Source of the DNA: a virus
Reading direction: 5' to 3' (one strand)
Virus record (IMG/VR): IMGVR_UViG_3300042898_001937
Coordinates: 1-43,549 of that record
DNA: 43,549 nucleotides
Shown: positions 5,378 to 43,512 of the stretch, piece after piece
How the letters are laid out: every line of letters begins with the position of its first letter
Position numbering within the stretch: position 1 is the stretch's first letter
Notes under the pieces: generated by a model
What the model was told of the DNA's origin: nothing
Seen by the model: the letters and a program-made list of their open reading frames with translations, nothing else
Database searches by the model: none
Position numbers and translations under genes: made by a program

Positions 5378-5393
5378 TTAATAAAATTTATTT

Positions 5394-13843: not shown

Positions 13844-13844
13844 A

Positions 13845-14153: not shown

Positions 14154-14166
14154 GATTTATATTTTT

Positions 14167-23593: not shown

Positions 23594-23791
23594 ATGAAAG
23601 TAGAAATGAAATTAACAAGTGTACATGTCTTAGATGGTATTTACAAAAAATTTAAAATAAACGCAATAGATGGTAGCATAAATCTTCAAAAATTAGTAAA
23701 TCGTTCTTTGGATTTATATGTTAAAGATGAAAAATTTAGAGACACGATTAATAACTATACTGATTTAGCAGTAAGTGGTTCAAAATATTAA
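23594..23791 (+). CDS. Ribbon-helix-helix-like small protein
   Basis: A 65-residue protein. The first strand VEMKLTSVHVLDGIYKKFK, followed by SINLQKLVNRSLDLYVKDE, fits the ribbon-helix-helix layout (one strand, helix A, a turn, helix B). Proteins of this type bind DNA as dimers and often repress their own operon. It is the first gene of the plus-strand glycosyltransferase operon and lies 1 base from the next gene, so it could be the operon's regulator. A similar pattern is common in myoviruses. Confidence 0.65.
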   Translation: MKVEMKLTSVHVLDGIYKKFKINAIDGSINLQKLVNRSLDLYVKDEKFRDTINNYTDLAVSGSKY

Positions 23792-23792
23792 T

Positions 23793-26389: not shown

Positions 26390-26390
26390 T

Positions 26391-26636
26391 ATGCCAAGGA
26401 AAAAAAAGACATCAACTAAGGTTGAACTTGAAAACACCATTCAATATTTTAGTCCATGTGAATGGGTAGTACAATTTGACAACGACGAACCAGTTGTCTT
26501 TACCGAGGCGGATGAAAACTCAACGAACAAAGAAGTTATAATCACATTAGGTAATGATAGTAATTCATATATAAAATTTACAGATCCAAACACAGGTAAG
26601 TTTTTTAAATTATTTGCTAGAGAAAAACTATCATGA
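26391..26636 (+). CDS. Small hypothetical protein
   Basis: An 81-residue protein: a basic start (MPRKKKTSTK), then an all-beta, acidic body with EWVVQFDNDEPVVF and SYIKFTDPNTGKFFKLF. It has no membrane segment. It is embedded in the glycosyltransferase operon and overlaps the next gene by 4 bases. No family is recognised. Confidence 0.55.
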   Translation: MPRKKKTSTKVELENTIQYFSPCEWVVQFDNDEPVVFTEADENSTNKEVIITLGNDSNSYIKFTDPNTGKFFKLFAREKLS

Positions 26637-26941
26637 AAAAATTTATATTTTTTGAAGGGATGGTTAAAGATACCTATGTGTTTAATAACATAGATACTGT
26701 TAACGTTGCTGGTGGTGTAAGGACATTAAGGGCAATGTGGACTCGTGAGGCGAATGAAGATTTAAATCAACATCATGGAATTGACGCGGAAGCCGAACTA
26801 ACAAGAATAATGTCAGAAGAAATTGCGAGAGGTATTGATGAAGATGTAATAAGAACAATAACAAGAAGAATAAATGGTGGTGATAATCATGGTATTGATT
26901 ATCTAAATCATTGGTTAAGAATAGGAGACAATAGAGCATGA
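26633..26941 (+). CDS. Small protein with a gp23-like capsid segment
   Basis: A 102-residue protein. Residues about 31-68 (LRAMWTREANEDLNQHHGID, then AEAELTRIMSEEIARGIDED) resemble, from memory, a conserved helix of T4-like major capsid proteins (DLxAxHGxDAEAELTxILSxEIxxEIDRE). The whole capsid fold is absent. It may be a short virion protein that keeps this assembly helix, or a remnant. It lies inside a glycosylation operon and overlaps the next gene by ATGA. Confidence 0.5.
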   Translation: MKKFIFFEGMVKDTYVFNNIDTVNVAGGVRTLRAMWTREANEDLNQHHGIDAEAELTRIMSEEIARGIDEDVIRTITRRINGGDNHGIDYLNHWLRIGDNRA

Positions 26942-27885
26942 AATGTGACAGACATATTTGGGACACGGATGATATAGAATGGTGTTGGAGGTGTGAAGAA
27001 TTGACAGCAAATGAATATAAAAAAAATCTTAAAAAAACTATGAAGATACTTGTAACTGGCGGTGCGGGTTTTATTGGTTCAAGTTTAATTAAGCTTTTAA
27101 TTAAAGAAGGATATATTGTTCATTCATTAGACAATTACAATAGTGGATTACATGAGAATGAAATCATTGGTTGTAATTACCATAATGGTGATATAGAACA
27201 AATTGATTTAATGGATAAAGACTTTGATTTGATATACCATTTTGCAGCATTAAGTAGAATTCAACCCTCATTTAACAATCCATCTGAAACGTTTAGAGTT
27301 AATGTGACAGGTACACAACTTGTTTGTGATTTTGCTAAAAAAATTAATAGTAAAGTTATTTACTCAGGTTCATCATCTCGTTGGCACAATCCACATATAT
27401 CACCATACGCATGTTATAAACATATGGGTGAGGAGATATGTAAAATGTATAAAGAGGTTTATAAATTAAACATAGAAATTGCTAGATTTTATAATGTGTA
27501 TGGTCCAAATGAAATTATGGATGGTGATTGGGCTGCGGTTATTGGACTGTGGAGAAGACAAATTAGAGATGGTCAACCAATAACAATTGTAGGTGATGGT
27601 GAACAACGTAGAGATTTCACTCACATAGATGATATTGTTGATGGGTTATATAAACTTGGATTTACTAATGAGAAACACGAAGACGGTTGGGAATTTGGTA
27701 CTGGATTTAATTATTCCATCAATGAAATTTCCCATATGTTGGTGGATAGGTTTGGGTGTGAGGTAAAATATATTCCCAATCAAAAAGGTAACTACCAAGA
27801 AACTTTAAGAGAGAATAATGATGCATTAAATAAATTAAATTGGAAACCTCAAGATAGATTAAAACAATATATTAATAGTTTATGA
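26938..27885 (+). CDS. NAD-dependent sugar epimerase/dehydratase with Cys-rich N-terminal extension
   Basis: A 315-residue extended SDR protein. From Met35 (27040) it has ILVTGGAGFIGSSL for NAD binding, YSGSSSRW with the Ser, the catalytic SPYACYK (Y-x3-K) and RDFTHIDDIVDG. UDP-glucose 4-epimerase or a related 4,6-dehydratase is the closest role. The first 34 residues, with CDRH and CWRC, are not part of the SDR fold and look like a small zinc knuckle. The ATG at 27040 forms ATGA with a TGA in another frame, so two separate genes with an indel in an A-run are possible. Confidence 0.85.
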   Translation: MKCDRHIWDTDDIEWCWRCEELTANEYKKNLKKTMKILVTGGAGFIGSSLIKLLIKEGYIVHSLDNYNSGLHENEIIGCNYHNGDIEQIDLMDKDFDLIYHFAALSRIQPSFNNPSETFRVNVTGTQLVCDFAKKINSKVIYSGSSSRWHNPHISPYACYKHMGEEICKMYKEVYKLNIEIARFYNVYGPNEIMDGDWAAVIGLWRRQIRDGQPITIVGDGEQRRDFTHIDDIVDGLYKLGFTNEKHEDGWEFGTGFNYSINEISHMLVDRFGCEVKYIPNQKGNYQETLRENNDALNKLNWKPQDRLKQYINSL

Positions 27886-28502
27886 AAATAAGTTACGCAA
27901 TAACAGTTTGTAATGAACTGGAGGAGATAAAGAGATTAGTTCCGTTCCTATTAGAACACAAGAGAATTCATGACGAGATAGTAATATTATATGATGAAAA
28001 TAATGGTAATAAAGAAATATTAGATTTCTTATTACCATATAATATCAAACCAAATGTACAAACTTGGAGAAGTATTGATTGGAACAACAACTTTGCCGAT
28101 TGGAAGAATAAATTAAATGATTACTGTACTGGTGATTACATTTATCAAATTGATGCTGATGAAATGATTAGTGAGTACATGGTTAAAAATCTTCATGAAA
28201 TATTAGAATTGAATCCCAACGTTGATTTAATATTTGTACCAAGAATTAATACTGTTTCAGGTATCACATATGAACATGTTGTTAAGTGGGGTTGGAGAGT
28301 TAATGAAAATGGATGGGTTAACTTTCCGGACGCACAGGGACGAGTATATCGTAAAGGAATGACATGGTACGGTAAAGTTCATGAACGAATAGTTGGTGGT
28401 CAGAAATTCTCATCATTACCATTGGATGAAGAATATTGTATTCAACATCATAAGACAATTGAACGTCAAGAAAAACAAAACAATTTATACAATTCATTAT
28501 GA
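27882..28502 (+). CDS. Glycosyltransferase family 2-like
   Basis: A 206-residue GT-A enzyme. It starts ISYAITVCNELEEIKRLVPF and has the metal-binding DxD-type motif in YQIDADEM. WYGKVHERIVGG and HHKTIERQ near the end are typical of short GT2 proteins resembling SunS-type and LPS-core enzymes. Its last 47 codons, from an internal ATG at 28359, are repeated almost exactly at 29110-29253. It is coupled by ATGA on both sides. Confidence 0.85.
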   Translation: MKISYAITVCNELEEIKRLVPFLLEHKRIHDEIVILYDENNGNKEILDFLLPYNIKPNVQTWRSIDWNNNFADWKNKLNDYCTGDYIYQIDADEMISEYMVKNLHEILELNPNVDLIFVPRINTVSGITYEHVVKWGWRVNENGWVNFPDAQGRVYRKGMTWYGKVHERIVGGQKFSSLPLDEEYCIQHHKTIERQEKQNNLYNSL

Positions 28503-29113
28503 GTTATCAATATCCGGAACATTTTAAATATCCCGAAGGAGAACGTTATTTCTTTTTAAATCATGTAGATGCGTGGGAACATTTTTTACCTAACTATGGT
28601 GATGAACCAAGAGTGTGTTTAGAAATTGGTGCGTTATATGGTGGATCTTCAGTTTATATTCTAGAGAACTTTTGTAAAATGAATGGTTCTCAACATTATA
28701 TCATGGATATTAATACAAATGAGTTTATTGAAAATAACATTAAACCATACGATAATAAGGTTACATACATTTTAGGGGAATCGGCCGATAGTTTTAAAAT
28801 GTTTAATCATAATGGTGAAACAAAAGAATTTTTAGATTTTGTTTATATTGATGGTAACCATATGTCAAAATATGTTTTAGAAGATGCTGTAAATGCATTT
28901 TACTGTTTAAAAAATAATGGTTACATTATATTCGACGACTATGGTGGTGGACTTGAACAAGAACAATATTTACAGGTTAAAACAGGGGCGGATGCATTTT
29001 ATCATGGTTATCACAAATATTTAGAAATAGTACACAATGGTTACCAAGTTATTATGAAAAAAATAAATTATATAAATGAAAACGATTTAAAAGAAAATTA
29101 TTATAAAGTATGA
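28499..29113 (+). CDS. SAM-dependent methyltransferase (Methyltransf_24 type)
   Basis: A 204-residue class I methyltransferase. Motif I is VCLEIGALYGGSSVY, the acidic loop is IMDINTNEF, FVYIDGNHMSKYVLEDA follows, and GYIIFDDYGGG is the typical late motif with two Asp residues. The enzyme probably methylates a sugar made by its neighbours. It sits between an intact GT2 gene and a fragment of a second copy of that GT2 gene, which suggests module duplication. Confidence 0.83.
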   Translation: MSYQYPEHFKYPEGERYFFLNHVDAWEHFLPNYGDEPRVCLEIGALYGGSSVYILENFCKMNGSQHYIMDINTNEFIENNIKPYDNKVTYILGESADSFKMFNHNGETKEFLDFVYIDGNHMSKYVLEDAVNAFYCLKNNGYIIFDDYGGGLEQEQYLQVKTGADAFYHGYHKYLEIVHNGYQVIMKKINYINENDLKENYYKV

Positions 29114-29253
29114 GTTGGTATAATAGAGTACATGAAAGAATTATCGGTGGTAGTAAATTTGCGTCATTACCTGATGATGAAGAATATTGTATTCAACACC
29201 ATAAAACAATTGAAAGACAAGAGCGTCAAAATAATTTATATAGTAGAATTTAA
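29110..29253 (+). pseudogene. Duplicated C-terminal fragment of a GT2 glycosyltransferase
   Basis: A 47-codon ORF. VHERIIGGSKFASLPDDEEY and the following CIQHHKTIERQERQNNLY match residues 160-206 of the GT2 gene at 27882-28502 with few changes, but the N-terminal three quarters, including the DxD motif, are missing. Both copies begin at an ATG, at the same point of the protein. The fragment keeps an intact frame and an ATGA overlap with the methyltransferase, so it may still be translated. It is best read as the remnant of a tandem GT2-methyltransferase array. Confidence 0.8.
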
Positions 29254-29258
29254 AAATA

Positions 29259-30377
29259 ATGAATATTAGTTTTGTTTTGGCGGTTTATAATAGATTAGAA
29301 TTAACAAAAGAATGTTATAGTAGGTTACGCAAAATCTATCCGAGTGCTCCGTTGGTGATTAGTAGTGGTGGTTCATCTGATGGAACTAAAGAATGGTTAG
29401 AATCTTTGGATGATGATAACCTTTCATATATTCATGATGATGAGAGATTGACGTTTTCAGACAATTACAATTCAGGTATAAAACTTGTTGATACTGAAAA
29501 ATTAGTTCTTATACATAATGACATGGTAATTGGTGAAGGATTTTTAGAATCAATTGAAAGATTACTTACTCCTGATATGTTATTATCATATACCACAATT
29601 GAGCCACCAATATTTGAAGGTCATAAAAGACCAGGTAAAGTGATATTAGATTTAGGTTCTAACTTTTTGGATTTTGATGACCGTAAGTTTAATGAATATG
29701 TTCATCAATGGAAAGATAGTGATACCCTATATTCAGGTGCAGTTTTCTTTATGAGTGGTTATAAAAAAATGTTTGAGGATGTGGGGGGATTTGATGGGTT
29801 TAGTTTTAAACCATGTTTTTGTGAAGATGACGATTTCTTAATTAGAGCAAAACTTAAAGGTTATAAGTTAATGACTTGTGAAAGTGCAATCACATATCAT
29901 TTTGTTTCCCAAACTTCAAGGTTCAATGATGAGATTAAAAATGATAGACATAAAATTGAATTCAACTCTAATAAAAATTTTATTAGAAAATGGGGTATAC
30001 CAATCAAATCATTTAATGAGTTAAGATATTGGGAGGATTCTATATTTAAATTTGAAACTTTTAATATGAGTTTAATCACTCGTAATAAAAATAGGTTAGG
30101 TCAATTAGAACCTTTTTTTGATAAGATTTTTGTTGGTGATATTCCAGAAGATTATATTAATGAAGAACAACCTAACACGAATTACGATTTAAAATCAAAA
30201 TTCACGTTTGTTAACATATCTGATGTATTGATATATGAGATAAATGAGTTTACTGACCAAGACATATACACCCTCTATACGTTACGATTGTCCATTCCAC
30301 ATTATGAACCAGGTGAGTATGAGATTGGTAATATGAAAATTGTTATAAAGAAAGATTTTCAGACTCCGAAAGCGTAA
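29259..30377 (+). CDS. Glycosyltransferase family 2
   Basis: A 372-residue GT-A enzyme. It starts ISFVLAVYNRLELTKECY, has SSGGSSDGTKEW, LVLIHNDMVIG in the place of the DxD motif, and FCEDDDFLIRAKLKGYK, which contains the catalytic ED motif. The C-terminal 100 residues are extra and unrecognised. It is the last plus-strand gene, and its end overlaps the convergent gene at 30359 by 19 bases with no visible terminator. Confidence 0.87.
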   Translation: MNISFVLAVYNRLELTKECYSRLRKIYPSAPLVISSGGSSDGTKEWLESLDDDNLSYIHDDERLTFSDNYNSGIKLVDTEKLVLIHNDMVIGEGFLESIERLLTPDMLLSYTTIEPPIFEGHKRPGKVILDLGSNFLDFDDRKFNEYVHQWKDSDTLYSGAVFFMSGYKKMFEDVGGFDGFSFKPCFCEDDDFLIRAKLKGYKLMTCESAITYHFVSQTSRFNDEIKNDRHKIEFNSNKNFIRKWGIPIKSFNELRYWEDSIFKFETFNMSLITRNKNRLGQLEPFFDKIFVGDIPEDYINEEQPNTNYDLKSKFTFVNISDVLIYEINEFTDQDIYTLYTLRLSIPHYEPGEYEIGNMKIVIKKDFQTPKA

Positions 30378-31782: not shown

Positions 31783-33579
31783 TTATTTTATTTTGGCTTC
31801 AAGTGCCTCAACTCTCTCTAACAATTCTTTATTTGTTTGGATTAACAAAGCGACCAATTTTTCATATTTAACAGCTTTATAACCATTATCTCTTGTTGTT
31901 ACAACTTCAGGTAGAACTTTCTCAACTTCTTGAGCTATCACCCCTATGTCGTGACCTTCATTCTCATGAACTCCTTCCATTGGAATCCAATCGAAAGAGT
32001 ATCCATTGATTTGTTTTAATATATCTAAAGAATTTGGTATTGTCAACACATTCTCCTTTAATCTTTCATCAGAACTGTAGAATGCAATAACGTCGTTGGT
32101 TGCTCTAATGAGACCTGCTGTTGCACCTGCTGCCGTTCCAACACCTAAAGCGTTAAATTGAACATTTGATGATGTTGCCACCGCTTGACCGATTGAGAAC
32201 GTAACTGCTCCTGTTGCAGCACTTACACCAACACCTGTACCCGCTACCGCCGATGTTACAGCGGTTGAAAGATATCCAGCACCATTGGTTAATTGGTTAT
32301 TGTTAGTAATAGTATTTGTGATTGTAACTGCTCCTGTTGCACTTACGTTTGAACTTAAACCTGTATTTGTTGTGATTGACGTTACACCTGCGTTTGTTAA
32401 TGTCACAGTACCTCCTAACGATACCGCACCACCACCACTCATACCTGTTCCTGCTGAAACCGTTACAGATGAGTTAGTTAATTTACCGTTAGCAACCGAT
32501 GCGTCAACTAATTGAGATGCATTTATTGTTTTGTTTGTAAGTGTTTGTGTACCAGTTGTTGTAACAATTGGTACTTCGGCACCAGTCAAACCAGCTTCCC
32601 ACACATCCGCAGTTTCGTCCCATATTAAACTTGCATTTGTAGATGTTCCTCTTTCAATTTCAATACCACCATTTTGTGATGGGGTACCTATTTCATCTGA
32701 ATTAAGAATTAAAATGTTATCTCCAATATTAACCGTATTTGAATTAACCGTAGTTGTTGTACCATTAACAGTTAAATTACCACCAATTGTAACTGTTGTA
32801 CCATCATCAGTTACTAATGAGTTAACCATAGTTCCTGAACTGAATTTACCAAGTACGTTGTTTGTACCCGATACTGTTACCGACGTACCTGATGTACCTG
32901 CCGTTCCTGAAGAACCACTAGAACCTGAAGTTCCTGAAGAACCACTAGAACCTGAAGTACCAGCCGTTCCTGATGAACCACTAGAACCTGAAGTACCGGC
33001 TGTTCCTGATGAACCACTAGAACCTGAAGTACCAGCCGTTCCTGATGAACCACTAGAACCTGAAGTTCCTGATGAACCACTAGAACCTGAAGTTCCTGAT
33101 GAACCACTAGAACCTGAAGTACCAGCCGTTCCTGATGAACCACTAGAACCTGAAGTTCCCGCTGTTCCTGAAGAACCAGCTGTTCCTGAAGAACCACTAG
33201 AACCTGACGTTCCTGAAGTTTGTGATGTATATGTTTGTCCGTTTAATTTTAAATCACCAAGGATATTAACGGAACCTGTAAAATTATGAAAGTCTAAAGA
33301 ATCGTTACCGAATGTATTCGAACCGCTCAATGTAGACTCTGTCACATAATAAACAGATGAACTCACAATATATTGTTGAGCTGTTAAGTTTCCCGTAACA
33401 AATAAATCACCGTTTATTGTTTGGTTTCCTTGAAAAGTGTTGGAACCCGTGGTTGCTCCACCACCAACGCTACCTTCAATGTTTGCTCGTAACGTACCCG
33501 TTACAATCAAATCACCTGTTATTGTTGCTGAACCTGATACCATTAAGGAACCGGTTACTACTGGATCAAATATATTCAT
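31783..33579 (-). CDS. Tail fibre with collagen-like repeats and S74 chaperone domain
   Basis: A 598-residue fibre. Residues 1-115 are repetitive beta strands (VTGSLMVSGSATITGDL, FQGNQTINGDLFVTGNL). Residues about 122-231 are collagen-like triplets GTS, GSS and GTA, rich in Ser and Thr. Residues 232-500 are more repetitive strands (LTVNGTTTTVNSN). Residues 502-598 are an intramolecular chaperone of the Peptidase_S74 type, with SSDERLKENV at the cleavage site, GVIAQEVEKVLPEVV and a final coiled coil. The chaperone trimerises the fibre and cuts itself off. A TibC-like O-glycosyltransferase gene is next upstream. Confidence 0.93.
   Translation of the reverse strand: MNIFDPVVTGSLMVSGSATITGDLIVTGTLRANIEGSVGGGATTGSNTFQGNQTINGDLFVTGNLTAQQYIVSSSVYYVTESTLSGSNTFGNDSLDFHNFTGSVNILGDLKLNGQTYTSQTSGTSGSSGSSGTAGSSGTAGTSGSSGSSGTAGTSGSSGSSGTSGSSGSSGTSGSSGSSGTAGTSGSSGSSGTAGTSGSSGSSGTAGTSGSSGSSGTSGSSGSSGTAGTSGTSVTVSGTNNVLGKFSSGTMVNSLVTDDGTTVTIGGNLTVNGTTTTVNSNTVNIGDNILILNSDEIGTPSQNGGIEIERGTSTNASLIWDETADVWEAGLTGAEVPIVTTTGTQTLTNKTINASQLVDASVANGKLTNSSVTVSAGTGMSGGGAVSLGGTVTLTNAGVTSITTNTGLSSNVSATGAVTITNTITNNNQLTNGAGYLSTAVTSAVAGTGVGVSAATGAVTFSIGQAVATSSNVQFNALGVGTAAGATAGLIRATNDVIAFYSSDERLKENVLTIPNSLDILKQINGYSFDWIPMEGVHENEGHDIGVIAQEVEKVLPEVVTTRDNGYKAVKYEKLVALLIQTNKELLERVEALEAKIK
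31786..32076 (-). other. Peptidase_S74 intramolecular chaperone domain
   Basis: This codes for residues 502-598 of the tail fibre. The SSDERLK motif carries the Ser of the self-cleavage site. The C-terminal ELLERVEALEAKIK is a trimeric coiled coil. Confidence 0.9.
32887..33216 (-). repeat. Tandem 9-base-type repeats coding Gly-X-Y triplets
   Basis: About 36 collagen-like triplets, arranged as near-copies of units coding GTAGTSGSSGSS and GTSGSSGSS. The near-identity of neighbouring units at the DNA level, such as repeated GAACCACTAGAACCTGAAGT on the plus strand, suggests recent expansion and contraction by slippage or recombination. The repeats give long antisense open frames rich in Pro, Glu and Val that are artefacts. 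Confidence 0.9.
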
Positions 33580-33601
33580 ATCTTATATTGTATTATACAA
33601 C

Positions 33602-33610
33602 AATAAATAC
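33602..33610 (-). promoter_or_regulatory. GTATTTATT motif (variant) before the tail fibre
   Basis: The minus-strand GTATTTATT lies 23-31 bases before the tail fibre start, a one-base variant of the GTATTTATA motif. Confidence 0.35.
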
Positions 33611-33639
33611 TTCAATATTTTTATTTGGGACAAAGAAAT

Positions 33640-35775
33640 CTAAAATAATATAAAATTTATTTTGTCGATTACACTTTTTGATGTTATTTTTTTAGAACAT
33701 TCAAATTCTCTCTCAGTTCCTTTGTGAATTGGGCACCAATTCCAATCTCCTGGATTAAATTCATGGGTTGACCAACAACCATGACAAACTTCTTTATTAA
33801 TAATACGTGACACTCCACCCTCTAAAGGTTCTAAGTCGATATCTGTGAATCCTGAAATTATTATTGTAGGAGTATCTGTGGCCCAAGATAACCAACTTAA
33901 ACCACTACTAATTCCAATAAATAATTCAGACTCTTGTAGTGTTTTCATAATGGTTTCTAAAGACCCAACAGGTTGTTGAGTGACTCCTTTGGGGTTTATA
34001 TTACCCATATACCCATCTTCTTCTTTTGATAATAATCTAACCTCATACCCTTTCTCTGTTAAATAATCAACAACTTCTTGCCAACCAAGTGGATTATTCC
34101 AATATTTTGCCTGTGCGGTCGAATGTATGGCTATACAAACCCTTTTTTGTTTTTTAACTTTAAATTTCTTTAATTTTGGTTTTTTCTCCACATATTTTAA
34201 TCCTAAAATATCGGATGGTATTTTTAACAATGGTAAACTTTTTGGGTCGTATGGGTGATATGTCAAATCAATCTCCCTATTTTGTCCATTTCCTTTATAA
34301 AAAACACCCAATCTATATAATGCATTTATGTTTGAAACACTAGAACCCGGTTCAACAAATTCAATGTCAGGATATTGGTCCTTAAATAAGTAATTGTGGA
34401 AAGTAGAACAAATAACCCTTACCTCTTTATCTATTTTGAATTTTTCAACATATGGCATGAAGGCTAACGTGTCACCAAGTGATTTACTTTCAAAACAAAT
34501 AAACACTCTTCCTCCTTTAACCACTATCGGATACTCTCCGTAAAAATCATTATCAACACCCTTAATGGTTATTTTCCAATCAACATAATATTTTATAGCA
34601 CATCTAGACCAATGATTACTTTTTAGGTTTGTTTGATATTCAACTTTATTATTTTTTAAATTAATAAATTTAACTTCGTACAAATAATCACCATCTTCTT
34701 TAATTTCAACAAATGGTCCATCAATATTATGAATTGACACTTGTCTATTTGTGTTGATGTTTTTTCTTGTTAATTTATTCTTTCTTCTAAATTCATCATA
34801 ATCGTCTTTTAGGTATTCATCAAAAACGTTGAGTCCTTGGTAAAATACTTTGGCTCTTTCTCCTTTATTATATTTCCCAACCTTTAAAATTGATGACTCA
34901 CCCCTTTTAATTGTATAGAAAGATTTAAAATCACCATAATTTACTTCAATCAAATAATCTTTGTCTGCTGGTTTTTCATGAAATCCAGAAAGAAAGTGGA
35001 AGTATAGGTTTTCTTGTTCGTCACCAACTAAATAGATTTGAAAACGAGCACCACCTCTATCCATACCGTCTCTGTTCCAAACCGCTTGGGTGTTTAATTC
35101 ATTACTGTTTGCAATATATTTTGATATGAATATACTATCTGTAACCTCTTTTAGATGTTGTAGGAAAACTCTTTCTAACTGCCATCCCTTTGGTCTATTT
35201 GCAAAATATTCGTACTTTGAATTAACTTTATCAATTACCTGAATTGCAATGTCAGTTTTAATTGAGAATATGAATGTTGCACAATATTCAGCAAAATGTT
35301 TGTCTTTACTTGAACCCTCGTTATATTCATATAATATAGCATCGTAATTTCTACTGTACTCTAAAAATGCTTGTCTATATTGTATGGGGTCAGGTATGTT
35401 ATCATATTCAAAGAAATGGATATGTTTTTTACCAAGTGTTTTAACAAACTTAAACGCGTTTCTCATTGTACACCATATAGCATAATCATGATGAAATTCG
35501 TTTTTATTTTCTGCTTTCCATAAACCCATGTCAGTCCATCGACCACTGTTTACACCATATTGTTCAAATTCAGATTCCATTAATAAATCATTATTTTTAT
35601 CGAACAAATAGTAATCGACCATTTTTTGTATTTCAGGTTTAACCGCATAGTGACCGGTTAATAAGATTGGAATATTAAATTCTTTTAATATTTTAATTAA
35701 ACTAATTAAGTCATTCTCTTTACTTACCGTGTCAGTCCAACAATCGATAACAAAAATATCATCTTCAAAAATCAT
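33640..35775 (-). CDS. TibC/Aah-like protein O-glycosyltransferase with N-terminal extension
   Basis: A 711-residue protein. The C-terminal half, from about residue 410, resembles the autotransporter O-heptosyltransferase family (TibC, Aah): VFICFESKSLGDTLAFMPYVE, CIAIHSTAQAKYWNNP, GISSGLSWLSWATDTPTIIISG, and a four-cysteine end (Cys664, Cys667, Cys681, Cys693) with CHGCW, WNWCPIH and FECSKKI, the iron-binding motif of TibC. TibC puts heptose on Ser of autotransporter adhesins. The N-terminal 400 residues are different, and contain a GT-A-like HFFEYDNI segment. It lies directly upstream of the Ser/Thr-rich tail fibre on the same strand. The stop is TAG. Confidence 0.8.
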   Translation of the reverse strand: MIFEDDIFVIDCWTDTVSKENDLISLIKILKEFNIPILLTGHYAVKPEIQKMVDYYLFDKNNDLLMESEFEQYGVNSGRWTDMGLWKAENKNEFHHDYAIWCTMRNAFKFVKTLGKKHIHFFEYDNIPDPIQYRQAFLEYSRNYDAILYEYNEGSSKDKHFAEYCATFIFSIKTDIAIQVIDKVNSKYEYFANRPKGWQLERVFLQHLKEVTDSIFISKYIANSNELNTQAVWNRDGMDRGGARFQIYLVGDEQENLYFHFLSGFHEKPADKDYLIEVNYGDFKSFYTIKRGESSILKVGKYNKGERAKVFYQGLNVFDEYLKDDYDEFRRKNKLTRKNINTNRQVSIHNIDGPFVEIKEDGDYLYEVKFINLKNNKVEYQTNLKSNHWSRCAIKYYVDWKITIKGVDNDFYGEYPIVVKGGRVFICFESKSLGDTLAFMPYVEKFKIDKEVRVICSTFHNYLFKDQYPDIEFVEPGSSVSNINALYRLGVFYKGNGQNREIDLTYHPYDPKSLPLLKIPSDILGLKYVEKKPKLKKFKVKKQKRVCIAIHSTAQAKYWNNPLGWQEVVDYLTEKGYEVRLLSKEEDGYMGNINPKGVTQQPVGSLETIMKTLQESELFIGISSGLSWLSWATDTPTIIISGFTDIDLEPLEGGVSRIINKEVCHGCWSTHEFNPGDWNWCPIHKGTEREFECSKKITSKSVIDKINFILF

Positions 35776-35785
35776 GTATTATATT

Positions 35786-36445
35786 TTAACGTTTTCTAAT
35801 TAATATTATTCCATTAAGGAATGTTATGGATTCAATGTCCGTTCTACAATCTGATTGTTCTTTTAATAATGTTTCCGTACACCAATCTTCTCTTCTTGCA
35901 TGAACATTTGGTTTATCGAGATTCATTACCCCTCTAAAATTTACATCATCGGTTAATCTTTTAAAATATTCCATCATTGTTGTTTCTTTAAGATAACCAC
36001 CTTCCCAATGACTCCAATATGATGTTGCACAATCTTCAACAATATATATACCACCCGATTTTACAGATTGAAATAAATGTTCAAATGAAAATATCACGTG
36101 ACTATTCATATGTGAACCATCATCTAATATCATGTCAAATGGTCCGTATTGTTGCCAAATTCTTGATAGGAAGTTACCGTCAGCTTGTGAACCTATCTCA
36201 ACTGATATACCTGATTCCTCATACTTCTTACAATCAGGGTTAATATCGATACCTAATATATTGGAACGATAGAAATATTCTTTCCATGTTTTTACAGATT
36301 GTCCGTCTAATACACCAATCTCCATGATGTTTAGTTTATCATATCTTTTGAATGGAAGATAATTAGAGTATTTATCACAATAATTGTGACAATCGGAACT
36401 TTTATCAGTTCCATAACTTTGTGCTATTTTGTTTAATGTACTCAT
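35786..36445 (-). CDS. SAM-dependent methyltransferase, demethylmacrocin-methyltransferase-like
   Basis: A 219-residue protein. The start AQSYGTDKSSDCHNYCDKY and motif I KLNIMEIGVLDGQSVKTW, then ILGIDINPDC, FDMILDDGSHMNSHV and GGIYIVEDCATSYW match class I methyltransferases related to TylE and to surface-polysaccharide methyltransferases. It probably methylates a sugar hydroxyl. It overlaps the upstream trifunctional gene by ATGA and stops 10 bases before the TibC-like gene. Confidence 0.85.
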   Translation of the reverse strand: MSTLNKIAQSYGTDKSSDCHNYCDKYSNYLPFKRYDKLNIMEIGVLDGQSVKTWKEYFYRSNILGIDINPDCKKYEESGISVEIGSQADGNFLSRIWQQYGPFDMILDDGSHMNSHVIFSFEHLFQSVKSGGIYIVEDCATSYWSHWEGGYLKETTMMEYFKRLTDDVNFRGVMNLDKPNVHARREDWCTETLLKEQSDCRTDIESITFLNGIILIRKR

Positions 36446-39162
36446 CTTGTAAAATATATCATTTGTAATTTGTTATTTCCACCCATAAATAAAAGATATG
36501 ATTGGAACCCCAATCCATTCATTCTATCTATTAATCCTTGCCTTAGTTCTTCATTGTAGTTCAATTGACCGTGGTGATATTCCATTGCAATGTTTTTAAC
36601 TTTCATTAAATTATCATCCGATATACCAGCAAAAGCATGTAGTTCGGCACCCTCAATATCAACTTTAAGAAAATCAATCTTGTCAACTAAACCAGTTTCA
36701 AAAAGATAGTTTAAAGTATATGTTCTAACGGGATAATTCACACTATCACCTGAACCGAGTAATGTTGATCCACCTAAGTGTTCTGATTGATACAATATAA
36801 ATTCATCAATGGTATCGGCCATTGCGGCATTAAACAATATGGAACGTGGGTCGGCATTTAATGATAGTAATTTGAAGTATCGTTTATCAGGTTCAAATGA
36901 AATTACTTTACTAGCACCTTGACTATATGCCCATCTGTTGAATATTCCAACATTACCACCTAAATCAACAACCACATCTCCTTCATTGATTGTTTTTTGT
37001 CTGTCCTTATAATAATCTAACAGATTAAATATTTCGTGATAAATGGCTCTGAACCAACCATACTTGTTTGCTATTTCAATCGTACCTCCTTGAACATCTT
37101 TAATGTCTCCTAAATTTTCAACTTTGTAAACATCGGTGTAGAATTGTTCTGATTTATAAAATGAATTGTTTTTCATCATTGTAATGAATTCAATCATCTT
37201 GTCAGATATTTCAGCATGTTTATTACCATGAAAATAAATGATTTTAGATTTATCTTTTGGTATGAATTGATAACCAAATATCCTATTGAAATTTTGTGGA
37301 CCTTCTTCATTCCAAAACTTATAAAAGTGATGTAACATTTCATTAGTGTTACCTAAGTCACCATCATAACCCGATGTGTCAAAGTTTGATAGTGGTAAGA
37401 ACTTATCACATCCATATTTCCATCTCATTGCGTTATCGATACCCTCATCATTCCAGAGATATAGACGTTTATAATCTTTAGGATTATTCTCAATTACTTT
37501 TGTGTAATGTTCAAGAATTTCCGTAAACCATTTATGACAATTTGAATTATAAATGTAGAAACAAATATGTGCATAAGGATTTCTTTTAGTAATTTTCCAT
37601 TCGTTAGCTAATTGTTCATTGAATAGTTGTGAGTCCTTACCATCATTGTAGGTTCCAAAAAATTCCGTTTGAACATGAATGTCGGGAATTGGGTATGTTG
37701 TTAATTGTGAGAAATATTCTTTTACATTATCAACATTATGATTCACAACTACATCACCATCAATCCACACATAGTTATCAAAACCATAATCCAATGATTC
37801 TAAACATGCATGTTGTTTCCAATACCACTTATCATGTTCAGATATTTTTGGTGGGTTAATTGTTTTTTTAATCACGTTTGGATAATCAAATGGTACTTCA
37901 CAATCAACACCATACACTATAATTTTATGTCTTGAGAATTGTAACAATGATTGAACTAATTTTTCAATGACCGGCATATATTGTAAATTACCTGTGGTTA
38001 CAAATGCAAAATGTTCATTGGTTCTTTCTAATATATCAGTAGCACCTTTAGCTATAGTGTCCCAATTAAAATTTTCATGAATGGTTTTAGATTCGGTTAG
38101 AGCCAAAACTTTATGTTGTTTACTATTCTCGTAAGCATTTCTTAATTGAGATTTTAAATTTTCCCAATCGGGTTCACAGTAATCACCTGGAAAGTCTTTG
38201 TGTTCGTGATTTGCGGGTGTTAAACCTTTAATATCCACGGGTAGACCACCATCTGATGTAAATTGTAATTGTCCACCCCAATTTGAGTATATGGAGGGTG
38301 TACCACAAGCCATAGCTTCTATTAATGGTAAGTTCCAACCCTCACTTCTTGCACACGAAACAAACACGTTAGCTTCTTGTAGATATCTAACATATTCATC
38401 TCTTGATGGAAAATTTATGAACTTAATCTTCTTAGTGTCAATACCATAATGTTTAATTCTTTCCTCAGTTGTTTTTAAGCCGTCCGAAGGATATGGATTT
38501 TCAACCGAAGCGATTAATTCAACATTGTCAGTATCTTTAAATTCTTCTGAGAATGCTTGTAAAATTTCGGTAGTCCCTTTTCTCCATTCCCATCTACCAA
38601 ACAATACAAATTTAGTCTTCTTTGTTTTTATTGTTTTGTTTGTAGGTTTAAAGGTATCAACATCAACCCCTTCGGGTACTATAAAGACTTTTTCTTTGGG
38701 ATAACCTTGTTCCACAATACAATCATACTGCCATTGTGATGGTACCCACATCTCATCAAACGTGAGTAATCTTTTAAAGAAACCATCACTAAATCTTGTT
38801 GACTCCCAAACACAATATGCGATTTTATAACCCTCGTAATTGTCATAATAGTAATGACTGTTATTCTCCATCAATACAATGTGAACATCGGGTATAAAGT
38901 TGGGGTCGTGTCCGTAAATTGGATAATCGGTTCTTGAGTTATCCCCATTAATTAGTGTTTGTTGGTGTAACATTTCCTTCATCTCATCCGTAATGTAGGA
39001 TTCCCCGTCATGTGGGGTGTTGTTATAACCTGACCAACTACCCCCAACGGTTAAATTTCTAACTTTAACTTGGTGGTATTTGTTAAGTGCCGTGAAGAAT
39101 GAACGTGCATGATTGGCATAACCAGTAGTACCAATAAAGGGGGCGTGTGCTAAGATTTTCAT
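36442..39162 (-). CDS. Trifunctional protein: GT4 + GT-A + FkbM methyltransferase
   Basis: About 906 residues from the Met at 39162; a longer in-frame start exists at 39198 but adds a hydrophobic stretch. Domain 1 (about 1-380) is a GT4 enzyme: ILAHAPFIGTTGYANHARSF, SEGWNLPLIEAMACGTPSI. Domain 2 (about 385-640) is GT-A-like: FAFVTTGNLQYMPVIEKLVQ and the DxD motif YVWIDGDVVV. Domain 3 (about 728-906) is an FkbM-type methyltransferase: VVDLGGNVGIFNRWAYSQG, ISFEPDKRY and FLKVDIEGAELHAF. One protein would add two sugars and a methyl cap. It is coupled by ATGA to the next gene. Confidence 0.88.
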   Translation of the reverse strand: MKILAHAPFIGTTGYANHARSFFTALNKYHQVKVRNLTVGGSWSGYNNTPHDGESYITDEMKEMLHQQTLINGDNSRTDYPIYGHDPNFIPDVHIVLMENNSHYYYDNYEGYKIAYCVWESTRFSDGFFKRLLTFDEMWVPSQWQYDCIVEQGYPKEKVFIVPEGVDVDTFKPTNKTIKTKKTKFVLFGRWEWRKGTTEILQAFSEEFKDTDNVELIASVENPYPSDGLKTTEERIKHYGIDTKKIKFINFPSRDEYVRYLQEANVFVSCARSEGWNLPLIEAMACGTPSIYSNWGGQLQFTSDGGLPVDIKGLTPANHEHKDFPGDYCEPDWENLKSQLRNAYENSKQHKVLALTESKTIHENFNWDTIAKGATDILERTNEHFAFVTTGNLQYMPVIEKLVQSLLQFSRHKIIVYGVDCEVPFDYPNVIKKTINPPKISEHDKWYWKQHACLESLDYGFDNYVWIDGDVVVNHNVDNVKEYFSQLTTYPIPDIHVQTEFFGTYNDGKDSQLFNEQLANEWKITKRNPYAHICFYIYNSNCHKWFTEILEHYTKVIENNPKDYKRLYLWNDEGIDNAMRWKYGCDKFLPLSNFDTSGYDGDLGNTNEMLHHFYKFWNEEGPQNFNRIFGYQFIPKDKSKIIYFHGNKHAEISDKMIEFITMMKNNSFYKSEQFYTDVYKVENLGDIKDVQGGTIEIANKYGWFRAIYHEIFNLLDYYKDRQKTINEGDVVVDLGGNVGIFNRWAYSQGASKVISFEPDKRYFKLLSLNADPRSILFNAAMADTIDEFILYQSEHLGGSTLLGSGDSVNYPVRTYTLNYLFETGLVDKIDFLKVDIEGAELHAFAGISDDNLMKVKNIAMEYHHGQLNYNEELRQGLIDRMNGLGFQSYLLFMGGNNKLQMIYFTR

Positions 39163-39211
39163 TATAGATAATATAGAGAAAATCCACGAAAATATCAAAT
39201 AAATTGAAAAA

Positions 39212-39898
39212 TTATATTAGGAAAAAGAATTCTGGACGTGTTCTTTTTAAATTAGATAACTCTGTATCATTTAAATCCATATGGGTAAAATTATTATTAT
39301 TTGGAGTTAATATTTTAAATCCCTTTAATTCTTTATAATTTAAAAATAAATCATATATATAATCTTTATAAATAAAATCAGGTTTCAGATTATAATCTCC
39401 TTTAATTTGATTTATAAATCCATTGTTACATATGACAACAACAACCCTACTATAGTTGTATCCATTTATATCATATTCTCTAAGTTCCAAAAGATTTTGA
39501 TGGGAGTTGACTCTACCACAGTTATGTAATCTAAATAACATTTCATAACTATAATAACAATTTAAATCAACCCAATAATACCCAACTCCATTTTTTCTAT
39601 AGTCTAAAATTATATTATTTTTTTCCACATAATTAAATGTTGTAAACATTTTTTCGTGCAACTTATACCAATTTGAATACATCAAATCCATTTCATCTAT
39701 TGTTTTATTCAATAAAAATTTAGAATCTCCGTTGAATTCAAAATCAATTAAATGTACAATCGGATAAATTAATTCATTTAAATCTTTATTTGATATTCTA
39801 CTTAAAGATATTGATGATTCATTTATTTTACTTATAATAAATTCTGAATGTTCATCAAAATGTTTTTCAATAAATCCCACACTTCTTATATTGGACAT
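39212..39898 (-). CDS. Hypothetical protein next to radical SAM gene
   Basis: A 228-residue protein with Asn-, Ile- and Tyr-rich composition. MLFRLHNCGRVNSHQNLLEL is the most distinctive segment. No catalytic motif is obvious. It overlaps the radical SAM gene by one base (TAATG), so the two are translated together and it may be its substrate or partner. Confidence 0.6.
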   Translation of the reverse strand: MSNIRSVGFIEKHFDEHSEFIISKINESSISLSRISNKDLNELIYPIVHLIDFEFNGDSKFLLNKTIDEMDLMYSNWYKLHEKMFTTFNYVEKNNIILDYRKNGVGYYWVDLNCYYSYEMLFRLHNCGRVNSHQNLLELREYDINGYNYSRVVVVICNNGFINQIKGDYNLKPDFIYKDYIYDLFLNYKELKGFKILTPNNNNFTHMDLNDTELSNLKRTRPEFFFLI

Positions 39899-40944
39899 TA
39901 TATTAAAGTTTTTTGTGTGGTGTCGACAAATTCATATAAATTATGAAATAGATTAGTGTTTTTCCATATCCTATTAAATTCTTTTTTAAATAACTCATGC
40001 TCAGGGTGATTGGTATCCCAAACCTGTTTTAATTTAAATTCACCATCTGAGAATGTACCCCAATTAACTATTTTACCAAAAAACACATTTACCTTTTTTC
40101 CAAAAATAGAATACATTAAATTATAAAAGGTTTCCATTTCCATATAGTTACTATCTTGAACAACAAACGATGTTTTTACTGATTTCAATGTTTCTATTGT
40201 AGAAATAAATTTTAAATTATTTATTAAGGTATCCCACTTACCACCTAATCTGGTTTTATTTTCATAGGTGTTTTGTGTTCCTGCATCTATTGATATCTCA
40301 CACGTTGTTACATACTTATGAACATTTGGCATACTGTCCCACATTTCCTTTGTCCACATTGATGCATTTGTATGAAAATGTATACTTGTTAATTTTGGGT
40401 ATTTTTTTGGATTAAAGTTTCTTAAATAATTTCTAAAACTAACTGAAACAAAGGGATCTCCAGTACCAGTAATGTATAAAGTTTTTACGTTTGCCGAATA
40501 ATAGGTATCAATCTCGTCTATTGTTTTTTCTATTCGTTCTATACCTTTACTACTTTCAACAATTAAGTCGACTCTACACGATGGACATTTATAATTGCAG
40601 GTCCTATCAAAATTCATTAAAATTGTGGTCGGTGTGGTTGGTTCAATAATTGGTGTTGTATATTTTGAATTTGATTTTAAGTGAATAGGGCCAGAGGTGA
40701 CACCATAGTTTAACAATCTACTTAAATGTGGACATAATTCTTTGTTACAATATTTAAATGAACCATCTAAAATGGAATTTCTAATATCCACAACCGGTTC
40801 ACTATTATATACATTTTTTAAAGATGTATCATTAAGTTCTATTTTATTTGGTAACCAAGATGGACAACAAACAAACCCAACATTATCATGTATTTCTAAA
40901 GTGGTAAATGGATTACTACACGTATATTGTTTTAAATCTATCAT
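39898..40944 (-). CDS. Radical SAM protein with extra Cys-rich N-terminal region
   Basis: A 348-residue protein. The radical SAM signature is NFDRTCNYKCPSCR (Cys116, Cys120, Cys123, CX3CX2C), followed by TLYITGTGDPFVS, the SAM-binding GGE-like strand, and IHFHTNASMWT. The N-terminal 75 residues hold Cys9, Cys26, Cys27, Cys66 and Cys71 (FVCCPSW, YCNKELCPH), like a SPASM/Twitch region placed at the N-terminus, as in several sugar- or peptide-modifying enzymes. It should need a [4Fe-4S] cluster. It is coupled to the sulfotransferase gene by TAATG. Confidence 0.87.
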   Translation of the reverse strand: MIDLKQYTCSNPFTTLEIHDNVGFVCCPSWLPNKIELNDTSLKNVYNSEPVVDIRNSILDGSFKYCNKELCPHLSRLLNYGVTSGPIHLKSNSKYTTPIIEPTTPTTILMNFDRTCNYKCPSCRVDLIVESSKGIERIEKTIDEIDTYYSANVKTLYITGTGDPFVSVSFRNYLRNFNPKKYPKLTSIHFHTNASMWTKEMWDSMPNVHKYVTTCEISIDAGTQNTYENKTRLGGKWDTLINNLKFISTIETLKSVKTSFVVQDSNYMEMETFYNLMYSIFGKKVNVFFGKIVNWGTFSDGEFKLKQVWDTNHPEHELFKKEFNRIWKNTNLFHNLYEFVDTTQKTLI

Positions 40945-41423
40945 TAAATTATATTAGTTATTGACATTCGTAACCTATCCGCTGAATTATTATCAAAAAT
41001 ATCTTCATAGTATGTAATTGGTATTTTAGTAATTTTTGAAAGATGGTTGATTTCCTCATTCCAATTTAGTATATCAGACGTACACAAATTTATTATTTCT
41101 TGTGGTGGTTCTTTATAGACATATGGATTATTAGAATTATAACCTGTTTTTAAAAAATACGTTTGATATGAGTGAGATTCTATTAACTCTTTTATATTTT
41201 TTCTATTAAGAAGTATAATTTCATCAAAGTTATTAATAAGTTCTAAATTATTTTGGTAGTGTGATATAATTGTTTTAACAACCGAATTATCTTCATTGTT
41301 ATAGATAACTCTACCAGTCCCATCAAATGGTTCAAAGAATGGTTTTAGATTTCTATCTTTAGATATTTTTTTTAAAAGAGAAGTTGAGCCGGTTCTGGGT
41401 AATGCTATTATTAATATTTTCAT
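40944..41423 (-). CDS. Sulfotransferase-like protein
   Basis: A 159-residue protein. The 5'-phosphosulfate-binding loop is ILIIALPRTGSTSLLKK, FEPFDGTG is the typical next block in short sulfotransferases, and IILLNRKN provides the 3'-phosphate-binding Arg. It is shorter than most carbohydrate sulfotransferases (200-300 residues). It would transfer sulfate from PAPS to a sugar or Tyr. PAPS must come from the host. It is coupled to both neighbours by overlapping stop and start codons. Confidence 0.8.
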   Translation of the reverse strand: MKILIIALPRTGSTSLLKKISKDRNLKPFFEPFDGTGRVIYNNEDNSVVKTIISHYQNNLELINNFDEIILLNRKNIKELIESHSYQTYFLKTGYNSNNPYVYKEPPQEIINLCTSDILNWNEEINHLSKITKIPITYYEDIFDNNSADRLRMSITNII

Positions 41424-41938
41424 ATGATACTAAATTCTGCTTTCTTTTTTGAAAACCATATTATTAATACATCTCGTTCCCCATTAATTATCTTTTTTAC
41501 TTCGTGGGATTCATTACCCCCATTGAATACAATATAATCTCCTTCATTTGTCAATGATAGATCTTTATCATTTATATACATTTCACCACCTGTAAAATCG
41601 GATGACAATAAAATACTAACGGTCTTATGTGTTGTAAATCTATCTTTATGTTTTTTAGCATAACCATTTTCACCATATATTAATCTATGCATTATGTATA
41701 AATTATCAATGGGTTCTTCAAATTTATTACAAATAAATTCATTTAAATTTTTATTTTCTAAAGTATAAACCCAACTATCATTTGGAAAGAGAGATAGAAT
41801 ATCGGCTTTTTCTGGATTTGTGGTATGATATAATTGGGGATGTGCTGATTTTATATAGCTTAAATCTTCTTCATTCATTATTCGAGTGTTATTTAATTCA
41901 GATTTTAAAAAAACTAAATCATCGATTGATAGTTTCAT
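41420..41938 (-). CDS. 2-oxoglutarate/Fe(II) dioxygenase
   Basis: A 172-residue protein with the double-stranded beta-helix iron site: His97-x-Asp99 in AKKHKDRFT, the GGEMYIND strand, distal His145 in GNESHEVKKI and the 2-oxoglutarate-binding Arg155 in NGERDVLIIWF. This is a prolyl-4-hydroxylase-like subgroup common in phages. The substrate may be a protein, sugar or nucleic acid. It is coupled to the sulfotransferase gene by ATGA. Confidence 0.84.
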   Translation of the reverse strand: MKLSIDDLVFLKSELNNTRIMNEEDLSYIKSAHPQLYHTTNPEKADILSLFPNDSWVYTLENKNLNEFICNKFEEPIDNLYIMHRLIYGENGYAKKHKDRFTTHKTVSILLSSDFTGGEMYINDKDLSLTNEGDYIVFNGGNESHEVKKIINGERDVLIIWFSKKKAEFSII

Positions 41939-41972
41939 ATTAGTTTATTTGTATTATTTTTTTTAGTTAACA

Positions 41973-42539
41973 TTATATAACAGTTTTATTAGATTTTAAT
42001 TTAGGGTAATCAAAATCAGTTTCTGTCATCCAAATATTCAAGGCATACCTCGTTCCATTTGTTACCGGTAACACTCCGTGATAGGTTTCGGAACCATTAA
42101 ATGAAATTAAATCACCCAATTTTAAGTCAAATGTACTTATACCTTCAAGGGTTTCAAAATTAATAGGTGGATTTTTATCACCACATAAAGCAAACTGACC
42201 ACCTTCAAAGTTATCTGAAAGGACAATCACGGTCGTTAATTCACTTGATTTATCTTTATGCAAATTGAGATATCTACCATCATAATATGAAGTTAGACTG
42301 ATATTAAAATTCTTTAAATTAAAGGTAGAGTAATCAAACCATAATTTAAAATATCCGTTTTTATAATTGGTTATTAATAAATCAATTATTCTCTTTTTAA
42401 AATCAGAATCATATATTCGTCTACAATCCCATCGTTCTGACGGGTTGTATGAAAACGGTTCACCAAATTTAATACAGAACTCAATGATATCTTTAGCAGT
42501 TTCACTATTACAAAAATTACTATTTATGGTATAATTCAT
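41973..42539 (-). CDS. 2-oxoglutarate/Fe(II) dioxygenase
   Basis: A 188-residue protein with iron ligands His94-x-Asp96 in LNLHKDKSS, the FEGGQFALCG strand, distal His154 in ETYHGVLPV and Arg164 in NGTRYALNIWM. It is similar in fold and pattern to the neighbour at 41420 and may be a divergent paralogue. Its start overlaps the SGNH hydrolase stop by ATGA. The substrate is unknown. Confidence 0.86.
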   Translation of the reverse strand: MNYTINSNFCNSETAKDIIEFCIKFGEPFSYNPSERWDCRRIYDSDFKKRIIDLLITNYKNGYFKLWFDYSTFNLKNFNISLTSYYDGRYLNLHKDKSSELTTVIVLSDNFEGGQFALCGDKNPPINFETLEGISTFDLKLGDLISFNGSETYHGVLPVTNGTRYALNIWMTETDFDYPKLKSNKTVI

Positions 42540-43357
42540 AATAGATTTGAATTTTTTAGTTTGATGGGTACTAATAAATTACCCTCATTTATAAATTTAT
42601 ATAATTCCTCAGCAATCAATTTATATCCATTACTACTTGGGTGTTTACCTGCTGTGGTATCAACCCAATGGTTATTATCTTGCCACACATCTTTTCTATT
42701 AGTATTAATTAATAAATTTGCCATAGTTTTATCTCTATAACCCCAATATCTATTACTCTCAATTAAATGGGATTTGTCAACTAACGTATCAATATTTTTA
42801 TTAATCATTATATCAAATCCATCACAAAAAAGGTATCTAATACCTAATTCTTTAAACATAAATTGAAGATGTAATATGTAATTTTGATTTACTATATCGT
42901 AGTAGGTATCACTAAATAAATTATTAATGTAATAATCTCTAAAGTTTTTTTCTGCCCTATTATAGTTTATATTATCACTATTAACTCCATCAAAAATATA
43001 CTTTAAAAGGTGTTCTTTACTTTTATATCGTTTGCCCCAAATAAAAAAATCATCTTCAGTAGGGAAAAAAGGTAACGAATCCCGTAAAGATGATGACCAC
43101 ATAATAACAACGAAATCATCTTGAGTGATGATTTCGTTTTTTAATTGATATGATACTGCGTTAAATATTGCATTATTTGAGAATGCACCAACTCCATTAT
43201 TTTTAACTTCACATTTTAATAGTTCTGATAAGTGTTTAGGCCAACAATATTTTTGTCTTATGTTTGTTCTTTCTTCGAGATTATCCGTACTATATTCGTC
43301 TTCAGTATTTCCACCAACTCCCTCAGTCCAACTATCCCCATATGTAAATAACTTCAT
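42536..43357 (-). CDS. SGNH/GDSL hydrolase
   Basis: A 273-residue protein. Block I is LFTYGDSWTEGVGGN (Ser9), block III is VKNNGVGAFSNNAI with the Asn, and block V is TAGKHPSSNGYKLIAEEL with the catalytic His239. The family includes esterases, carbohydrate acetylesterases and also O-acetyltransferase-associated domains. In this operon it would fit a glycan deacetylase. There is no signal peptide, so it acts in the cytoplasm or virion. Confidence 0.85.
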   Translation of the reverse strand: MKLFTYGDSWTEGVGGNTEDEYSTDNLEERTNIRQKYCWPKHLSELLKCEVKNNGVGAFSNNAIFNAVSYQLKNEIITQDDFVVIMWSSSLRDSLPFFPTEDDFFIWGKRYKSKEHLLKYIFDGVNSDNINYNRAEKNFRDYYINNLFSDTYYDIVNQNYILHLQFMFKELGIRYLFCDGFDIMINKNIDTLVDKSHLIESNRYWGYRDKTMANLLINTNRKDVWQDNNHWVDTTAGKHPSSNGYKLIAEELYKFINEGNLLVPIKLKNSNLL

Positions 43358-43368
43358 GAGACATTGTC

Positions 43369-43512
43369 TTATTCTCCTAAGTGTTTAACCTTAATTGCCG
43401 TCACAACCGCCTGAAATGCGGTCGCCACTTTTGTTTTTAATTCACTTGAAATTGGTGCAACAACCGTTTTAATTGTTTGTGCCGGTCTTTCTACTCTTAC
43501 TTTTACTGCCAT
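43369..43512 (-). CDS. Short basic protein (47 aa)
   Basis: A 47-residue ORF found in the right-end gap: MAVKVRVERPAQTIKTVVAP and ending VVTAIKVKHLGE. It is rich in Val, Lys and Thr and could be a short virion protein, but there is no recognisable family. Its stop lies 11 bases before the SGNH gene start. Only the first bases of its leader are inside the window. Confidence 0.55.
   Translation of the reverse strand: MAVKVRVERPAQTIKTVVAPISSELKTKVATAFQAVVTAIKVKHLGE

Follow-up and report, generated by a model that had tools for sequence, protein, structure and literature searches.

The window analysed here is a 43.5-kb virus record, IMGVR_UViG_3300042898_001937, taken at its full length. Its genes at 39212-43357 encode members of enzyme families that share a short C-terminal tag, and on balance they are probably the downstream half of an operon by which the phage produces a modified, cysteine-rich mini-protein, the untagged genes at 31783-39162 being a second, fibre-glycan system. 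For the wider proposal, that T4-like phages of fresh water encode a new class of pathway for modified peptides, with a self-cleaving Hint precursor, a 6- or 8-cysteine mini-protein and shuffled enzymes recruited by one C-terminal tag, we would put the chances at about even. The precursor, its small companion protein and the swappable set of tagged enzymes are apparent from sequence and structural modelling. A first-pass annotation had treated eight minus-strand genes at 35786-43357 as a single cassette for a modified glycan or small peptide. Each half of that suggestion finds its place: the peptide suits the tagged genes, whose relatives surround a Hint precursor, and the glycan suits the two untagged genes, a glycosyltransferase (GT)-GT-FkbM gene and a methyltransferase gene, which are associated with a TibC-type enzyme and a collagen-like fibre.

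Relatives of the window were retrieved with its radical S-adenosylmethionine (SAM) enzyme (52 loci), its SGNH protein (58 loci) and U228, an alpha/beta protein of unknown function (1 locus), and all frequencies given below are conditional on retrieval through these cassette genes. Open reading frame (ORF) calling and clustering were simple, and the 2-oxoglutarate (2OG) oxygenase family is a broad cluster. On inspecting gene ends across the loci, a C-terminal pattern, K/N-[S/T/K/N]-L-I, was noticed post hoc; it is common to about 20 unrelated enzyme families, in which 46-100% of members are tagged, among them the families of U228, the radical SAM enzyme, the sulfotransferase, both 2OG oxygenases and the SGNH protein of the window. 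Counted on deduplicated proteins, the tagged fraction is 86% for 2OG oxygenases, 90% for the sulfotransferase, 85% and 97% for the families f4 and f5, 83% for radical SAM, 80% for SGNH, 98% for a tryptophan halogenase, 57% for U228 and 46-100% for the others, while the same pattern at internal positions of the same proteins, which served as the null, occurs in 0-6%, about 2% on the whole. Eight neighbouring families are untagged (0-10%): the precursor, a carbamoyltransferase, adenosine 5'-phosphosulfate (APS) kinase, a nucleotidyltransferase-like family, f11, TibC, the methyltransferase and GT-GT-FkbM, the last with the tag in 2%. The effect is so large that the choice of families is unimportant.

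In the related contigs, the tagged families surround a precursor family (f3) of about 500 amino acids, which consists of a conserved N-terminal domain, a Hint/intein domain ending in His-Asn, and a hypervariable cysteine-rich tail. A Foldseek search with the AlphaFold2 model of the precursor (pLDDT 81) returned 54 matches in the PDB at E ≤0.001, the best 50 of which are all inteins, bacterial intein-like (BIL) domains or hedgehog proteins. VIA-align to BIL domains and inteins gave Z up to 16.7, with an rmsd of 1.8 over 140 residues, and several inteins end at model residue 467; a PDB profile search likewise matched the family to the KlbA intein (E 7.6e-5). As modelled, the domain has the Hint fold. 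The terminal His-Asn pair expected for Asn cyclization, H466-N467, is invariant in 43/43 aligned precursors. The first position of the Hint domain (position 290) is His, Leu, Ile or Val in the same 43/43 and never the Cys, Ser or Thr of a splicing intein; the precursor is therefore not classed as one, and C-terminal cleavage without splicing is expected. The tail that follows is 25-49 amino acids long and rich in Gly, Pro, Ser, Tyr and Trp, with exactly six cysteines in 77/92 distinct precursors and eight in the other 15/92. Its drift outpaces that of the Hint domain: where the sequence ahead of the cut is 97% identical, the non-cysteine positions of the tail are only 76% identical.

Two candidate explanations for parts of the precursor were set aside. 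An ATP-grasp fold for the N-terminal domain, suspected by eye, found no support in Pfam, in the PDB profile search or in hhalign against E. coli RimK, the fold not having been searched as a separate model. A diversity-generating retroelement behind the tail variation was likewise not supported, as 11 large records contained no reverse transcriptase and the second tail-DNA copies examined amounted only to 14-19-nt matches. Two further Hint-like sequences were seen. At 5101-5571 of locus L124, between the tagged genes and the TibC module, lies a small stand-alone protein, starting MGKGSFAPGMMVLMADGTEKEIENVVKGD, that looks like a solitary Hint domain, and a 288-kb record has, besides its first precursor match, a second, weaker one elsewhere, at G002:C1:163243-163791 (E 1.6e-7, profile positions 245-442).

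The connection between the window and the precursor operon is made at the window's edge. There, at 43369-43512 on the minus strand, lies the gene for P46, a small protein of 47 amino acids (translation MAVKVRVERPAQTIKTVVAPISSELKTKVATAFQAVVTAIKVKHLGE) from the 46-amino-acid family that is the steady companion directly downstream of the Hint precursor. P46 homologues occur in 116 loci, directly after the precursor in 113 of them, and the other three are contig-edge or newly fetched precursor loci. P46 and the precursor are the constant untagged members of the tagged operon, and the window stops just beyond the expected precursor stop codon. Moreover, two related loci match the window from its edge with about 96% identity, L050 over 3.1 kb and L055 over 2.6 kb, and then run on into the precursor, beyond which L055 continues with f4, f5, a tryptophan halogenase and three more 2OG oxygenases. 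The halogenase is assigned with a Pfam E value of 1e-89. An APS kinase (E 8e-17) lies upstream in 17/28 loci and would supply the sulfo donor 3'-phosphoadenosine 5'-phosphosulfate (PAPS). Both modules stand in one stretch in locus L248, which carries, in order, a carbamoyltransferase, the halogenase, the precursor, SGNH, sulfotransferase, radical SAM and TibC genes and the start of a fibre gene.

The untagged genes probably put sugars on a collagen-like tail fibre, judging from family assignments and gene neighbourhood. The fibre (31783-33579, minus strand) contains 37 collagen-like triplets of the form G-[ST]-[STA] and carries a Peptidase_S74 chaperone at its C-terminus (PF01391 and PF13884 above their cut-offs, with matches to tail-fibre PHROGs). 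Next to it, at 33640-35775 on the minus strand and outside the bounds first given for the cassette, is a TibC/Aah-type protein O-heptosyltransferase with an N-terminal extension, which scores 247 bits against the TIGR04414 cut-off of 200 and matches the TibC structure 4rap with E 7e-46. The catalytic Asp (D110 in TibC) and the four iron-finger cysteines, residues taken from PMC4358343, are invariant in 11 sequences of the enzyme. TibC is reported to modify Ser, not Thr, in its known substrate (PMC4358343). The GT-GT-FkbM and methyltransferase genes travel with this enzyme and fibre. The former (36442-39162, minus strand) is an untagged three-domain protein with GT4, GT-A-like and FkbM methyltransferase domains (PF00534, E 2.8e-16; PF05050, E 1e-13), and the latter (35786-36445, minus strand) an untagged Methyltransf_24-like methyltransferase (phrog_21658, E 9.6e-29; PF13578 below cut-off).

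A viral scan found at least 589 relatives of the TibC-like enzyme. A collagen-like ORF is present in 59/102 TibC loci and in 1/95 other loci, the single case being a contig that starts inside a collagen gene; a comparison of TibC with collagen anchored on g31k covers only 5 loci. The same pairing is found in Microcystis phage Mel-JY01 and in a 735-kb phage. When counted by 90% clusters, a collagen-like neighbour accompanies 36/45 multidomain TibC-like enzymes and 5/26 stand-alone ones. TibC-like genes lacking a detected collagen-like neighbour, as in L133, L138, L140, L147 and similar loci, mostly encode stand-alone enzymes of about 383 amino acids, whose substrate may be a different repeat protein. 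Within the window, GT4, GT2, NAD-dependent epimerase and methyltransferase genes at 23775-30377 on the plus strand run toward the fibre region and probably constitute a second sugar module.

A single eight-gene glycan pathway was rejected because the tag and the co-occurrence of genes divide the set into two systems. Gene maps of the related loci show mix-and-match content, with 26 gene orders among 28 deduplicated loci, and the halves occur apart. The tagged genes are also found without the fibre-module genes, ahead of different fibres or of non-fibre genes; the tagged half accordingly does not always sit beside a tail fibre, non-fibre genes coming next in many loci.

Together, these observations are most economically explained by the following mechanism. 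The tag would dock each enzyme on a common partner, for which the conserved part of the precursor is the likeliest candidate, and the docked enzymes would then act on the tail by 2OG-dependent hydroxylation, radical SAM chemistry and tryptophan halogenation. The sulfotransferase would sulfate Tyr or a hydroxyl in the tail, with PAPS from the upstream APS kinase; the SGNH protein might carry out acyl transfer or hydrolysis on the tail, and U228 possibly acetylation. After modification, Asn cyclization at the His-Asn pair would free the finished tail, which may then be carried on the virion or enter the surroundings of the lysed host. In the fibre module, the collagen-like fibre is the predicted target of the TibC-type enzyme, which would O-heptosylate its Ser/Thr residues; the linked glycosyltransferases and methyltransferases would extend and cap the resulting glycan.

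It might instead be supposed that the region as a whole serves as a host-recognition island, with enzymes that act on sugars and build or remodel a surface glycan, either host lipopolysaccharide (LPS) or one on the virion, the precursor being a passenger. Glycosyltransferases, FkbM enzymes, a carbamoyltransferase and sugar enzymes do lie nearby, and in pelagimyophages, islands that combine radical SAM cassettes with glycosyltransferases and tail fibres were interpreted as LPS modification (PMC7029224). We nevertheless regard this explanation as unlikely, as the tag is carried by the tailoring enzymes and is found in at most 10% of the GT-GT-FkbM, TibC, methyltransferase and carbamoyltransferase families, a tryptophan halogenase points to an amino-acid substrate, and the tagged genes are consistently arranged around the Hint precursor, which was recovered even in a record from which it was seemingly absent. 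Some loci do have fibre genes after the tagged cassette, which would suit enzymes that modify virion proteins such as fibre or capsid, the Hint-tail protein being a separate adhesin or bacteriocin. Yet in many other loci non-fibre genes follow, so that the cassette is not tied to a fibre, and the tagged genes group around the precursor whatever the fibre type, making this possibility quite improbable. It is more doubtful still that the common C-terminus is not a peptide signal but arises incidentally from translational coupling or from a recombination motif in the DNA at gene junctions. The last (Ile) codon of the tag is skewed to ATA (78% versus 39% genome-wide), as would be expected beside TAATG or ATGA junctions. 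However, the Leu codons at the tag (TTA, TTG, CTA and CTT) match genome usage, and therefore it is the peptide that is conserved and not the DNA; the tag persists in 106/129 (82%) distinct tails whose following gene begins at a distance of more than 15 nt, compared with 21/521 in other genes; and untagged genes with similar junctions, such as GT-GT-FkbM/methyltransferase, do not have it.

Several points nonetheless weigh against the proposal of a tag-recruited peptide pathway alongside a fibre-glycan module. The precursor gene itself lies outside the window, and the modification, docking and His-Asn cleavage are steps that we infer. For the N-terminal domain of the precursor, searches of Pfam, NCBIfam and PDB sequence families gave no match, and a recognition domain was not found. 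The carbamoyltransferase, glycosyltransferases and FkbM enzymes close by are also typical of glycan pathways, and the tag could serve localization or stability. Trp is present in the tail in 26/26 cases with the halogenase versus 13/21 without it (Fisher p 6e-4), an association that is confounded with precursor subtype and vanishes within MHN-type precursors. As for the fibre module, nine multidomain TibC-like clusters have no detected collagen-like neighbour, some through truncation, and most stand-alone genes have none.

All eight genes of the first-pass annotation are present at 35786-43357, and five of their seven junctions overlap as claimed, but the bounds drawn around them were too narrow, leaving out the precursor operon beyond one end and, beyond the other, the linked O-heptosyltransferase with the collagen-like fibre. 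ATGA overlaps join the SGNH gene to the first 2OG oxygenase gene (42536-42539), the second 2OG oxygenase gene to the sulfotransferase gene (41420-41423), and GT-GT-FkbM to the methyltransferase gene (36442-36445), while TAATG junctions link sulfotransferase to radical SAM (at 40944) and radical SAM to U228 (at 39898). The two 2OG oxygenase genes are separated by 34 nt, and taking the conserved ATG at 39162, not the listed TTG at 39198, as the start of the GT gene leaves a gap of 49 nt after U228.

The domain assignments held to differing degrees, those of the GT1, FkbM and 2OG domains exceeding Pfam cut-offs. All the tagged genes lie on the minus strand. The SGNH/GDSL-type hydrolase or acyltransferase (42536-43357, tail NSNLL) is named on the basis of a GDSW motif and a weak DUF6071 match. 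The 2OG-Fe(II) oxygenases at 41973-42539 (tail NKTVI) and 41420-41938 (tail EFSII) score 40.7 and 28.4 bits, respectively, against the PF13640 cut-off of 27. For the small sulfotransferase (40944-41423, tail ITNII), the protein searched alone gave no useful PDB match and no Pfam match; its family profile matches the sulfotransferases NodH (E 0.0013) and CurM (E 0.004), weakly but consistently, and the 5'-PSB P-loop, ALPRTGST, is conserved, including R10, G12 and S13. Similarly, the radical SAM enzyme (39898-40944, tail QKTLI) falls just below the Radical_SAM Pfam cut-off (26.6 versus 29.5), yet its CxxxCxxC motif and the cysteines of its N-terminal, twitch-like region are at least 97% conserved in 54 sequences. 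U228 (39212-39898, tail FFFLI; family f54) had been proposed as a substrate or partner; as a substrate it is unlikely, being a compact folded protein with the enzyme tag in its own family, and the probable substrate is encoded past the edge of the window. In Foldseek, the AlphaFold2 model of U228 (pLDDT 82) weakly resembles MYST/GNAT acetyltransferases (E 0.016, TM about 0.3). Elsewhere in the window, at 13514-14628 on the minus strand, adjoining genes encode IscU-like scaffold, 4Fe-4S ferredoxin-like and IscA-like proteins that, by their sequence resemblance, could provide Fe-S clusters to the radical SAM enzyme.

The precursor was found in 226 viral contigs; it was not found in 50,697 phage records, nor were cellular copies present among the candidates from one scan of cellular genomes. 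Among twelve large records with homologous loci, matches to the T4 gp23 capsid family occur in nine and exceed the cut-off in six, and thus the phage is most likely T4-like by this marker. The gp23 matches in records G005, G006, G009, G010 and G011 are short (ORFs of 73-107 amino acids), which suggests divergent, fragmented or interrupted capsid genes.

Should the proposal prove correct, Hint cleavage combined with a common docking tag on the enzymes would amount to a natural plug-in logic for peptide modification, and the tag alone would pick out those uncharacterized oxygenases, sulfotransferases and SGNH proteins of phages that work together. The broad question of what the tailoring enzymes in aquatic phage islands act on would be reduced to a simple test on one peptide. 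Separately, the TibC-collagen pairing predicts O-heptosylated tail fibres in many uncultivated phages.

No earlier description of such a system was found in the literature searched, coverage of which was partial, but its parts resemble several known ones. The radical SAM enzyme has the layout of the twitch subfamily NF033640, its best model, with an N-terminal Cys-rich region and CxxxCxxC, but at 57.5 bits it scores below the curated cut-off of 170. Like the protein O-heptosyltransferases TibC and Aah of the BAHT family (eLife 2014, PMC4358343), the enzyme at 33640-35775 has the catalytic Asp and all four iron-finger cysteines, and it scores above the family cut-off; unlike them, it is phage-borne, fused to an extra N-terminal region and adjacent to a Ser/Thr collagen-like fibre, not to an autotransporter. 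The pelagimyophage host-recognition cluster is likewise a hypervariable island of T4-like phages with tail fibres, glycosyltransferases and radical SAM cassettes, although the part of PMC7029224 consulted infers LPS modification and reports no Hint precursor, common tag or TibC-type enzyme. With BIL, hedgehog and intein Hint domains, the precursor shares its fold, the terminal His-Asn and the alignment of several inteins to the terminal Asn, but it lacks Cys, Ser or Thr at position 1, consistent with C-terminal cleavage only, and the part released would be a Cys-rich peptide with dedicated enzymes. Finally, as in the biosynthesis of ribosomally synthesized and post-translationally modified peptides (RiPPs), a gene-encoded precursor with a hypervariable, core-like C-terminal segment lies amid radical SAM, halogenase, sulfotransferase, methyltransferase and oxygenase genes. 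A RiPP pathway also calls for modification of the core peptide by the enzymes, which is predicted here. No leader-recognition domain turned up in Pfam, NCBIfam and PDB sequence families, and, unlike in RiPP pathways, the short tag is on the enzymes and not on the precursor, the system has been found in viral contigs only, and a built-in Hint domain, not a protease, would take off the leader.

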